The translations under genes and the position numbers were made by a program. A stretch of 36,164 bases of DNA, from positions 1 through 36,164 of the forward strand of contig NZ_CALXRN010000148.1 of the NCBI RefSeq assembly GCF_944390595.1, in the 5' to 3' direction. The DNA is from an uncultured Brachyspira sp. GTDB taxonomy: Bacteria; Spirochaetota; Brachyspiria; Brachyspirales; Brachyspiraceae. This document shows, one piece after another, positions 5,976 to 10,406 of this stretch. The number at the start of each line of letters is the position of its first letter. Within the stretch, counting starts at the first letter, position 1. Under the pieces are notes generated by a model, which was not told the origin of the DNA, searched no databases, and was given only the letters and a program-made list of their open reading frames with translations.

Positions 5976-7565
5976 TCACTTTTCCATATTATTTGATATA
6001 TTCACAAGTATTGTTTTTATATTTTTATATAGTTTAGCATCATCTTGATATTTCAAGAACTCTATTCTCTTCTGATCTATTTCTTTTAAATTCATCATAT
6101 AGTTATTAAAATATTCATCTATAAATTTATTATATTTAGATATTACATTTTCTTCTTCATAAGCTTTTATAACCTTTTTAGATAAAGTCTTTTTCCAATT
6201 ACCTGAAAATGACATAAATCCGGAAAGTATGAAAACTATGCTAGGCAGAAAATATAAAGATGCCCCTATAATATTTGCTTGTTTTATTCCGCTTGATTTT
6301 AATAAATCAAAAGAAGGAACAATGCCAATTGCAGCCGCTGCTAAACATATTTTACTAGAATTTTTTGAAATTACAGATTTGTTTGTATCTTTATTAGCAA
6401 AATCATCTTCTACTATAGCTAAAGTATTATATAATTTAGTATCTAATTCTAAATTAATGCTATTACATAATACTTTTATATCATCTTTTTTTCTATATAC
6501 ATTATGTTCATCAATAGCTTTAATAATATTATCTATATTCAAAGTATTTTTATATATATCATTGAAGATTTCTTTTGCACTATTTTTTAATTTTTGTATA
6601 TTAGTTTCTATTTTGTCATTATCTTGGAATTCATTTTTATCATTGATAATTTCAATATAGAAATTAATATTAGTTAATAGTCTATGATAATATGTATATT
6701 TAAGACTTTCAACAAATTTGCTTTTTATTTCTTTCACAAAATTCGTATTATTAATAGAAAATGGGAAAAATCTAGTTCTTAGATATTCATAATCTATTTT
6801 GTTTATATTGTCGCTTGATGATATAAAGTTTTTGAGTATTTCAAATTTCTTATTTATAACTCCATCAAGTTCATTTTCATCAAAAATATTTGCTTTTGAA
6901 AATATGACAAATATATTTGAAAAATCGTCTACAAAATTAATAAGTCCATTTATATTTGTAACATCTTCTTGTGAAAAAGCATTTATATCACAAAGATAAA
7001 TAAACATATTTTTATTACTATACTTCTTTGTATCAAGAACATTATCTTTATATTCTATAATTCTAAACAGCTTAGAATCATCTTGAAGATAATATTCTTC
7101 ACTATCCGTATCTTCAGAATATGGATTAGTATCTATATTCTTATCAAAAATAGCGTTTATAAAAGATGTTTTTCCAGAACTATATCTTCCATAAACTATT
7201 ATATCAAGAGTATCATTTACTTGACTGTAAATATCAGACATAAGTTCATTAATCTTATCGCTATTTTTCTTATCTACAGAATTAATCTCTTCTGATATTT
7301 TATCGAGTATCTTTTGTACATCAATAAAATTATCATATAAATCCAAACTTTCATTTTCAAATGAATTTTTTCTATATTTTGTTAATTCATCAATGCTAAG
7401 ACCTGTATTTTCTGCGAGTTTATCCAACAAATCAAGGGTTATATTATTAGCATTTCTCTCAAGTCTGGAAATATAATCCTGACGCACTCCCAACATTTTG
7501 GCAAACTGACTTTGAGTCAATTTTAATATTTTTTCTCTAATATCTTTTAAATTAAAATCAATCAT
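5976..7565 (-). CDS. XRE-type HTH fused to a dynamin-like GTPase with membrane segments
   Basis: A 529-residue fusion protein. Residues 4-65 form an XRE/Cro-type helix-turn-helix (LTQSQFAKMLGVRQDYISRL). Residues 118-300 look like a GTPase domain. Its P-loop GRYSSGKT is at 126-133 and a G4-like SKAN at 223-226, in place of T/NKxD. The canonical G3 DxxG is not evident. Residues 300-400 and 460-529 are helical. Two hydrophobic stretches, about 405-418 and 431-452, flank a short linker and could form a membrane hairpin, as in dynamin-like proteins. It is divergent from the HPr-like gene pair. Promoter TTGAAA-N17-TATAAT lies at 7606-7634. It may be a membrane-linked, nucleotide-gated regulator; GTP hydrolysis is inferred only from the P-loop. 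Confidence 0.7.
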   Translation of the reverse strand: MIDFNLKDIREKILKLTQSQFAKMLGVRQDYISRLERNANNITLDLLDKLAENTGLSIDELTKYRKNSFENESLDLYDNFIDVQKILDKISEEINSVDKKNSDKINELMSDIYSQVNDTLDIIVYGRYSSGKTSFINAIFDKNIDTNPYSEDTDSEEYYLQDDSKLFRIIEYKDNVLDTKKYSNKNMFIYLCDINAFSQEDVTNINGLINFVDDFSNIFVIFSKANIFDENELDGVINKKFEILKNFISSSDNINKIDYEYLRTRFFPFSINNTNFVKEIKSKFVESLKYTYYHRLLTNINFYIEIINDKNEFQDNDKIETNIQKLKNSAKEIFNDIYKNTLNIDNIIKAIDEHNVYRKKDDIKVLCNSINLELDTKLYNTLAIVEDDFANKDTNKSVISKNSSKICLAAAAIGIVPSFDLLKSSGIKQANIIGASLYFLPSIVFILSGFMSFSGNWKKTLSKKVIKAYEEENVISKYNKFIDEYFNNYMMNLKEIDQKRIEFLKYQDDAKLYKNIKTILVNISNNMEK

Positions 7566-7605: not shown

Positions 7606-7634
7606 ATTATATAATAATAGAAAAATTTTTTCAA
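7606..7634 (-). promoter_or_regulatory. Promoter of the HTH-GTPase gene
   Basis: Minus-strand TTGAAA (7634-7629), 17-base spacer and TATAAT (7611-7606). The expected start site leaves a leader of about 34 bases before the ATG at 7565. Confidence 0.6.
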
Positions 7635-7882
7635 GATTTTTTATGTAATACATGTAGCATTATTTATTTATTATTTATCTTTAAAATGAATATAGCATTT
7701 TTAATTGAATTTTTAAGTTTAAATATTCTAAAATATATAATTGTTTAAATTGATATTATTTACTTGTGTATGGAATTAATTTATTATCATATTATACATA
7801 TAAATATTTTTTATAATATTTTTATATACTAATTATTCCTTATTTTTAATAATATATATTTGAAGATAAATAACAGCTTGAA

Positions 7883-7990: not shown

Positions 7991-9127
7991 ATGAGTGATA
8001 ACAATTTTTTATCAAAAGAATTTATATATAAAAGAGATCCTTCTATTATAAACTCTATAGTAGATTTTATAAAAAATAATATAGAAGATAAAGTAGAAAT
8101 TGGATATAGTGCTTCAAATAAAAAAGTAAATGCAAAATCTCTTTTAAAAGTAATGGCTTTGCTGTCCAAAAACAATAGTAATATTACTATATACTGTTAT
8201 GGAGATAATAAAGAACATAATTTAAATATTATAGAAAATTTTTTGTATGAAAACAAATTTTCTTCTTTAGATGAAGAAATTATAAAACATCAAAAAATAT
8301 ATGATTATGATAAAGAACTTGAAAAAGAAATATTATCCTTAACTCCAGATAGTAAAAAAGTAAATATACAAAATAAAATAAAGCTATTAAAAATAAAAAG
8401 AGAAGTAAAGCATACTGAATATACAGATAGTAAAAATATCATATATATAAAAAATGATGAAAAGAAAGAAATATTTGATTTTATTGATAGTGATATTCTA
8501 CCTATAATAAATAAAATAGCCTCATTCTATGAAATAACTATTCATGATAATTATATAGAAAAACTAAAAAATGACATGATAAACATTTTAAAATTAGAAT
8601 ATATTAAATATTTTTATAAAGATATATTTTTTAATAGTATACAAAAATACTTTATTAATAAATTTGATAAAGCTTATATAAAAAAGATAATGGATGAAGA
8701 ATATATAAAATATACTGAATATGATATTGAATGCATAAATAAAATCATAAAAGACTCAATTAAAACATTTGAGTATATATTAAAAAATAAAAGAGAAATA
8801 TCATTTAATATTCCTGATATATATTTAAAAAATTTAAACTATTCAAATATAAAAAGCAATATAATAAGCATAGTTACTAATTTGTTTATAATATATGAAA
8901 TAGAATACAAACTAATCAATGAAGACTTAATATCATTTGCCTCAAAAATAACTCAATTTATAGGAGAAAATCTTTTATCCGGAATGGGGAGCAGCGGCAA
9001 TATACTAATAGAAAATATAGTAAATTATTTCCAAAAACAATTTGAATATGCCTATATATCTTCCATAATAGGAGAAGATTCTTCAGTTATAGAGTATGAT
9101 TTCAATTATATAAAAAGATTCATATAA
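7991..9127 (+). CDS. Crh-like HPr domain fused to an unrecognised helical region (copy 1)
   Basis: A 378-residue protein. Residues 8-86 align by eye with the PTS phosphocarrier HPr. SIINSIVDFIK sits at helix 1, then KKVNAKSLLKVMAL (44-57) for the HPr Ser46 segment TVNLKSIMGVMSL, then an ITIYCYGDN strand and a final helix. The catalytic loop GxHARPA is absent (here YKRDPSI, no His), while the Ser46 equivalent Ser50 is kept. Phosphotransfer through His is therefore excluded, but regulatory Ser phosphorylation, as in Bacillus Crh, is possible. Residues 100-378 are Lys/Ile/Asn-rich and helical, and I do not recognise them. A paralogue follows 106 bases downstream. No signal peptide, so probably cytoplasmic. 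Confidence 0.6.
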   Translation: MSDNNFLSKEFIYKRDPSIINSIVDFIKNNIEDKVEIGYSASNKKVNAKSLLKVMALLSKNNSNITIYCYGDNKEHNLNIIENFLYENKFSSLDEEIIKHQKIYDYDKELEKEILSLTPDSKKVNIQNKIKLLKIKREVKHTEYTDSKNIIYIKNDEKKEIFDFIDSDILPIINKIASFYEITIHDNYIEKLKNDMINILKLEYIKYFYKDIFFNSIQKYFINKFDKAYIKKIMDEEYIKYTEYDIECINKIIKDSIKTFEYILKNKREISFNIPDIYLKNLNYSNIKSNIISIVTNLFIIYEIEYKLINEDLISFASKITQFIGENLLSGMGSSGNILIENIVNYFQKQFEYAYISSIIGEDSSVIEYDFNYIKRFI

Positions 9128-9161
9128 TTAAAAAAATAAATATGTTTATACACATAAAATA

Positions 9162-9190
9162 TTGATTTAATGCAATATATATATTATATT
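9162..9190 (+). promoter_or_regulatory. Promoter of the second HPr-like gene
   Basis: TTGATT (9162-9167), 17-base spacer and TATATT (9185-9190). It gives the second paralogue its own transcript and shares the TTGATTTA -35 context with the promoter of the first copy. Confidence 0.45.
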
Positions 9191-9233
9191 TATAATAAGA
9201 GTGTTTTGTAATATAAAATATAAGGGTAAATTT

Positions 9234-10406
9234 ATGGAAGAGTTTATATCTAAAGAATTTGAATGCCGAAACCGTTATGCTTCTGATAATAAAATAATTA
9301 ATTCTATCGTTGATTTTTTAAGAACCATAGAAGATAAAATAGAAATAGAAAATAAAAACGGAAAAAGAGTTAATGCTAAATCTTTTGTAAAAATGATGGG
9401 GCTTGATATAGAATATGGATATAAATTCACATTATATGTATATGGAAACGATAGAGAAAATAATTTAAAAAGAATAGAAGAATTATTAGAAAAAAAAGAA
9501 TTTTACAGCTTAGAAAAAATTGAAAAATTAGAAAAAGAAGAAGAATCAAAAGAAAATAAATTATTAGAAGAAGAAATACTGCATTTTACTGCGGAAGATA
9601 AAAAAGAAATTATAAAAAATGATATAGAAAATAAAGTAAAACTATTAAAAGAAAAAAGAGACTCAATTCATTTAGAACCTTTAAATTTAGATAATAATAT
9701 TATTTATATAAAAAATAATGATAAAACAGCAATTATAGATGTTATTAATAATAATATATACAATTCAATAAAAAAACTTTCTTCACATTATGAAATTCCA
9801 ATAAATGAAACAGATTTAAAAAATTTTTTATCTAAATTAGTAAATATAATAGAAGAAAAAGAAATGAAATACTTTTATATTTATTTATTTTCAAGCAATG
9901 TAAAAAAATATTTTTATAATCAATTCGATACCATTTTCATAAAAAAACTTGCAGAGGCAGAATGTTTGCCTAATACAGATTACAATATTGAAATTAATAA
10001 TAATTTTGTAGAGGAATCTATAAAAAGTTTAGACTATGTTCTTGAAGATAAAAGAAAGTCAGCAGATTATTCTATAGACATTTATATGATTGCCAATACT
10101 TCTAATCTTACTATGGATATTTTTAGAATTATTAATATTGTCCAAAATATAGGAAAAATTTATGAAATCAAATCAAGCATTACTGATAATATTATTGAAA
10201 AAATAAGATTAAGCTATGAAGATAGAAAGAAAAACAATATTGATAATCCTTTTCATAATGAAGAATATTTAGATAATATAAAAGAGTTTAAAGATTATTT
10301 CCAAAAAGAGTTTGAGGAGCTTTATGTATCTAATGTACTTGAGAATAACGATAAAAAATTAAATATTGATTATAAGTATGTAAATAGACTCATAAGGAGG
10401 TTATAA
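9234..10406 (+). CDS. Crh-like HPr domain fused to an unrecognised helical region (copy 2)
   Basis: A 390-residue paralogue of the preceding gene. I chose the ATG at 9234 because AAGGG lies at 9222-9226 and the protein then starts in register with copy 1; a GTG at 9201 has no RBS. Residues 6-86 are HPr-like: IINSIVDFLR, then GKRVNAKSFVKMMGL (43-57) matching the HPr Ser46 segment, then FTLYVYGND and a terminal helix. Ser50 is conserved; the active His loop is replaced by RYASDNK. Both copies share motifs along the full length (NIIYIKN near 165, a YEI motif, KYFY, YFQKxFExxYxS, and a DYxYxxRxI ending). The stop abuts the ATG of the phosphoesterase gene, so the two are translationally coupled. 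Confidence 0.6.
   Translation: MEEFISKEFECRNRYASDNKIINSIVDFLRTIEDKIEIENKNGKRVNAKSFVKMMGLDIEYGYKFTLYVYGNDRENNLKRIEELLEKKEFYSLEKIEKLEKEEESKENKLLEEEILHFTAEDKKEIIKNDIENKVKLLKEKRDSIHLEPLNLDNNIIYIKNNDKTAIIDVINNNIYNSIKKLSSHYEIPINETDLKNFLSKLVNIIEEKEMKYFYIYLFSSNVKKYFYNQFDTIFIKKLAEAECLPNTDYNIEINNNFVEESIKSLDYVLEDKRKSADYSIDIYMIANTSNLTMDIFRIINIVQNIGKIYEIKSSITDNIIEKIRLSYEDRKKNNIDNPFHNEEYLDNIKEFKDYFQKEFEELYVSNVLENNDKKLNIDYKYVNRLIRRL

Follow-up and report, generated by a model that had tools for sequence, protein, structure and literature searches.

In the 36,164-nt window analysed here (positions 1–36,164 of contig NZ_CALXRN010000148.1 from an uncultured Brachyspira sp.), gene X at 5976–7565 on the minus strand encodes a 529-amino-acid protein in which an XRE-type helix-turn-helix (HTH) is fused to a dynamin-like protein. 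We put the probability at roughly 40% that X is a pseudo-dynamin regulator that controls its own gene, responds to the membrane and descends from a mobile HTH-dynamin of the defence type. More tentatively, X could be a dynamin-superfamily member that no longer catalyses, acts as a membrane or nucleotide sensor, controls the XRE domain and a divergent HPr-like partner gene, and stems from a defence protein of the mobile HTH-dynamin kind. The new findings are the family link, the loss of the G3 motif across the genus under constraint and a promoter element of X and its neighbour, gene E. HTH-dynamins, a family of bacterial dynamin-like proteins with their own XRE repressor domain, have received little description; plasmid members were annotated merely as 'dynamin family protein', and a search of the accessible literature found no paper on HTH-dynamins. 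Dynamins have been studied as membrane machines, and one that carries a repressor domain of its own would couple transcription directly to the remodelling or sensing of membranes.

The reading frame of X runs from an ATG at 7565 to a stop codon ending at 5976 (529 codons). Orthologues were found in 18 of 26 Brachyspira genomes, with identities of 74–97% where complete; the copy in genome G024 was broken by an assembly gap, and the closest named genome was that of B. alvinipulli (97%). The remaining eight genomes had no X. Since the neighbourhood of X was alike in most genomes carrying it, X is a chromosomal gene passed on vertically within Brachyspira, and a location in a mobile or prophage island of Brachyspira was ruled out by synteny. 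The most constrained segments were the HTH and the P-loop (pN/pS of 0.024 and 0.023, respectively), and the conserved hydrophobic block had a value of 0.072; across X the ratio was 0.02–0.3 except in one segment (0.54), and these ratios are rough at pS values of 0.42–0.59. The frame was open in every orthologue with complete sequence. X is under strong purifying selection and is no chance open reading frame; the selection analysis also ruled out a pseudogene. The fused frame described in the original prediction was confirmed as a constrained gene, with its motifs where they had been placed. A scan of the Spirochaetota with a homologue from Carboxydocella as the query gave long matches in one of 138 genera, Brachyspira. 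A profile of X orthologues matched other Spirochaetota only over short, N-terminal (HTH-region) stretches, and scans of viral contigs found no relatives.

The identity of the dynamin part was established through homologues. The Dynamin_N search suggested with the original prediction stayed below threshold for X alone (19 bits against a cutoff of 27, with the match limited to the P-loop and the first 23 profile positions) and succeeded for plasmid homologues from Lactococcus, Lactiplantibacillus and Acinetobacter, each of which exceeded the cutoffs for HTH_3 and Dynamin_N. A Carboxydocella plasmid protein (CTH_10006) was 35% identical to X over the HTH, linker and P-loop. A second collinear stretch between the two ran through the trunk and tip, pairing LNIDNIIKAIDEHNVYRKKDD with MSVDNIVSIIEKKRFKKNKND in the trunk and NWKKTLSKKVIKAYEEENV with NWEKRLAKHIINEFDKRKV in the motif after the tip. 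The HTH-dynamin family profile matched Nostoc BDLP (2j68) at 4e-10. An AlphaFold model of X (mean pLDDT 74, pTM 0.74) had low confidence in the HTH part, probably because the alignment was shallow. In a fold search with this model, the best PDB matches were the Campylobacter DLP pair (5owv, 1.2e-4) and IniA (1.9e-4), and further matches included MFN2 (mitofusin-2), EHD and Irga6. The TM-scores were low, probably because of domain orientation, and the ranking of matches was used while the overlay was set aside. Because the plasmid homologues have strong Dynamin_N matches, the family profile reaches BDLP and the fold search returns dynamin-superfamily proteins, the assignment of X as an XRE HTH fused to a protein with a dynamin/TRAFAC-type GTPase fold is supported. 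An origin of the P-loop in an unrelated ATPase fold was excluded by the fold search and the homology.

The domain combination, which had been considered uncommon, belongs to a family and is no one-off. Its plasmid members are CTH_10006 and the proteins of Lactococcus pSD96_06 and pIL7, Lactiplantibacillus JB-1 p1 and Acinetobacter pMsp11. They share with X an N-terminal HTH_3 domain, a linker, the P-loop of a dynamin GTPase, a trunk with a KKD motif, a hydrophobic tip and an NW-type motif, in this order. In X, the first half of the trunk helices, with the KKD motif, spans residues 274–382 (6420–6746, minus strand), and the C-terminal trunk helices, which start with the NWKK motif, span residues 457–528 (5982–6197, minus strand). 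Unlike X, the plasmid members have a long Gly/Ala hydrophobic tip (shortened Lactococcus copies excepted) and are located on mobilizable plasmids. Nostoc BDLP1, Campylobacter DLP1/2 and IniA have the fold order of GTPase, helical trunk, tip and trunk in common with X, but are not known to have a DNA-binding domain. According to the literature, these bacterial dynamin-like proteins have a G3 motif.

The GTPase motifs of X were only partly retained. Both the P-loop (G1) GRYSSGKT at residues 126–133 (7167–7190, minus strand), invariant in all orthologues, and the degenerate G4 motif SKAN at residues 223–226 (6888–6899, minus strand), likewise invariant and standing in place of (N/T)KxD, were found as originally placed, and no DxxG occurred between them, as had been noted. 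In the alignment with plasmid homologues, the place expected for G3 (DxPG, switch II) was taken by DDSKLFRIIEYKDN (residues 162–175; 7041–7082, minus strand), and G3 was missing from every Brachyspira orthologue. The plasmid homologues carry DLPG, DTPG or DMPG at this place. The segment following G2 reads DSEIL...DxPG in these relatives and DSKLFRIIEYKDN in Brachyspira, where the G domain falls short of theirs by roughly 100 residues. The G4 motif was irregular in the plasmid homologues too (ASQAD, ASHAH, ATRSD). The loss of G3 in all Brachyspira orthologues and its retention in the relatives sharpen the doubt, raised in the original prediction, over GTP hydrolysis. Since G1 was kept and G3 was lost, nucleotide binding without normal turnover is most likely, and X probably hydrolyses nucleotide poorly. 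In the Brachyspira form, nucleotide binding and hydrolysis seem to have been uncoupled by nature.

Outside Brachyspira, members of the family were found beside defence genes. A P2-like prophage of Vibrio carried a diverged homologue, which lies between the portal gene and replication gene A. Such P2 prophage sites often hold defence genes. No common downstream partner was found in the pair of plasmid and prophage homologues compared. The Lactococcus HTH-dynamins flank PDC-M09A/B (2.7e-108 and 3.9e-170); on pSD96_06 (L102, 4175–6524), PDC-M09A/B was located between two HTH-dynamin genes. The Acinetobacter HTH-dynamin is divergent from JukA (5e-71), a component of the anti-phage system JukAB (PMC12571901). 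On pMsp11 (L100, 1030–4333), the HTH-dynamin match covered two annotated genes beside the JukA-like gene and looks broken. Plasmid HTH-dynamins would form a testable class beside the JukA and PDC-M09 defence genes. The Lactococcus plasmid pIL7 carries a member, and phage resistance was raised ~10^4-fold in a strain with all seven pIL plasmids, an effect that the authors of that study credit to HsdS (PMC3138775). The trunk of the Carboxydocella protein matched LeoBC (2e-16) and LeoA (1.9e-12), and X itself gave a weak match to the LeoABC P-loop (1.6e-4). The Eleos/LeoABC proteins (LeoA structure 4AUR, PMC4159319), similar to the plasmid members in the trunk, differ from X in having no described HTH and in functioning as a dynamin pair; no second dynamin was present at the X locus.

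These associations suggest an alternative in which X is a phage-defence effector that acts at the membrane during infection like DynA or LeoABC, with the HTH used only for autoregulation or for sensing phage DNA. The neighbours of the plasmid relatives, the LeoBC/LeoA match and the prophage homologue are consistent with this role, as is the finding that DynA of B. subtilis delays phage lysis (PMC8844932). We nevertheless consider it unlikely for Brachyspira, where X is passed on vertically, keeps a constant neighbourhood outside defence islands and has no partner recognised by PADLOC. X also lacks G3, and DynA with mutated P-loop lysines lost phage protection (PMC8844932).

The original prediction of a membrane hairpin overstates X. 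Two hydrophobic stretches were indeed present, at residues 405–418 (6312–6353, minus strand) and 431–452 (6210–6275, minus strand), with mean Kyte-Doolittle values of 1.61 at 406–424 and 1.98 at 432–450. The second was kept in 17 orthologues (mean 2.0–2.3), whereas the first mostly faded to about 1.1 or below the threshold. The surrounding segment 393–430 was the most variable of X (2 of 38 residues invariant), and the hydrophobic block FLPSVVFILSGFMSFSGNW was almost invariant, with 36 of 43 residues constant in 431–473. The term 'hairpin' is too strong because only one of the two stretches was conserved, and the membrane-insertion score of that one was borderline; a single inserted segment or a monotopic paddle is likelier. 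The helix order in the model fits a trunk split around a tip with the one conserved hydrophobic segment at the tip/paddle position, similar to the split trunk of BDLP and LeoA (PMC4159319). X could also be a soluble nucleotide-sensing transcription factor, a pseudo-GTPase sensor with the hydrophobic segment buried and no membrane role. A hydrophobic region much shorter than that of most plasmid homologues, the single segment with its borderline score and the concentration of constraint in the HTH and P-loop would all agree with such a protein. The almost invariant block, however, occupies the tip position that is exposed in known dynamins, and we regard a purely soluble X as rather improbable.

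The HTH, originally placed at residues 4–65, was recovered as a Cro/C1-type XRE domain at residues 6–61 (7383–7550, minus strand; PF01381, E = 3.4e-13). Residues 1–56 were invariant across 17 orthologues, yet 42 of the first 64 codon columns varied. The HTH-dynamin family profile matched HipB-type repressors at about 4e-8. By profile, the HTH of X resembles the antitoxin and repressor proteins HipB, PezA and RstR, from which X differs in that its HTH is joined to a large GTPase-like protein; no toxin partner of these families was seen at the X locus.

Gene E (9234–10406, plus strand) is divergently oriented to X and encodes an HPr-like domain and a helical domain. A fold search for the HPr-like domain returned HPr, including HPr in complexes with HprK/P and CcpA. 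The phosphotransfer histidine of the active site was lost and the NAKS motif around Ser-46 was kept. A relationship of E to JukA was rejected, as the comparison gave no signal. Full-length E was present in exactly those 18 genomes that carry X. In a two-gene Brachyspira tree, most genomes lacking X were placed between two X-bearing groups (support 80), so that a single gain and a single joint loss would roughly account for the co-occurrence, which is weak as independent evidence.

The X promoter-like site (TTGAAA-17-TATAAT; 7606–7634, minus strand) was accompanied by a TACAT element 8 bp 5′ of its −35 box (7643–7647, minus strand). An inverted repeat, AATATGTTTATACACATAA (TATGT-N6-ACATA), was located 5′ of the E −35 box (9139–9157), where a TACAT element is present as well. 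Strict promoters numbered 65 in the loci analysed; TACAT or ATACA preceded the −35 box by at most 16 bp in 24 of them, and 23 of these 24 belonged to X or E, which amounts to two promoters since orthologues are not independent. TATGT-N6-ACATA occurred 14 times in 376 kb, always at promoters of E or of the E operon of G022. Each of 12 genomes with linked X and E contained a single exact match to the full 19-bp repeat, always at E; the repeat had one mismatch in the window genome and in G015, and the eight genomes without X had no exact match. It was absent from the X promoter, which has TACAT only. Where E was unlinked from X (G016, G017, G024), the repeat was missing, so that action of X in trans on E is unsupported there. 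The sole exact match was away from E in G010, G016 and G024; a second promoter target was rejected, as the match was inside a coding gene in the two cases inspected (G016 and G010). No DNA-binding protein other than X was recognised at the linked pair, and the distribution of the repeat would fit a locus-specific regulator of that pair. In addition, a block of ~35 bp, TTAAAAATTnnATTAAAAATGCTnTATTnATTTTAAA (7675–7715 in the window), was kept 5′ of the X promoter in 17 genomes, even in those where E had moved away.

With two binding modules in one chain and both HTH and tip conserved, X could in principle tether DNA to the membrane, acting as a positioning factor through which a chromosomal site is anchored at the inner membrane. 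This is very unlikely, given that the sole candidate site was at the X locus itself, that no link of X to division or segregation genes was seen and that 8 of 26 genomes have no X. A decaying remnant of a mobile HTH-dynamin, as the shortened G domain, the lost G3 and the shortened tip might suggest, is contradicted by the selection analysis (low pN/pS in all but one segment, open frames in complete orthologues) and is hardly credible.

The preferred reading, a self-regulating pseudo-dynamin regulator, would work as follows. In the plasmid members, a G3-bearing dynamin GTPase is joined to an HTH, which probably acts as a repressor at its own promoter, similar to antitoxin-type XRE proteins. Brachyspira would have acquired such a gene, which became fixed in the chromosome and lost switch II (G3) of the GTPase; with G3 lost, X would most likely bind GTP and barely hydrolyse it. 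Dimers or oligomers of X may occupy operators at the divergent X and E promoters. On a stressed or altered membrane, the dynamin part, loaded with nucleotide, might assemble via the conserved hydrophobic tip. X would then leave the DNA, and both X and its HPr-like partner E would be induced. Of this scheme, the order of domains, the homology, the lost G3, the purifying selection, the pairing of X with E and the inverted repeat specific to the locus can be read from the sequences, and operator binding by X, membrane sensing, binding of nucleotide without turnover and the part played by E are inferred.

Gene D (7991–9127, plus strand), a paralogue of E, was restricted to G000, G015 and G022. In the window, D and E form a tandem of HPr-domain fusion proteins (7991–10406), both without the phosphotransfer histidine. 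In G022 (L021, 11638–14547), D and E are separated by two P-loop GTPases, of which one has a DUF697 domain. In G010 and G015, pieces similar to the end of the second GTPase were recognised by eye upstream of E. The G022 genome also contained 19 Dynamin_N matches, several of them in clusters of long open frames (contigs C3, C18 and C27).
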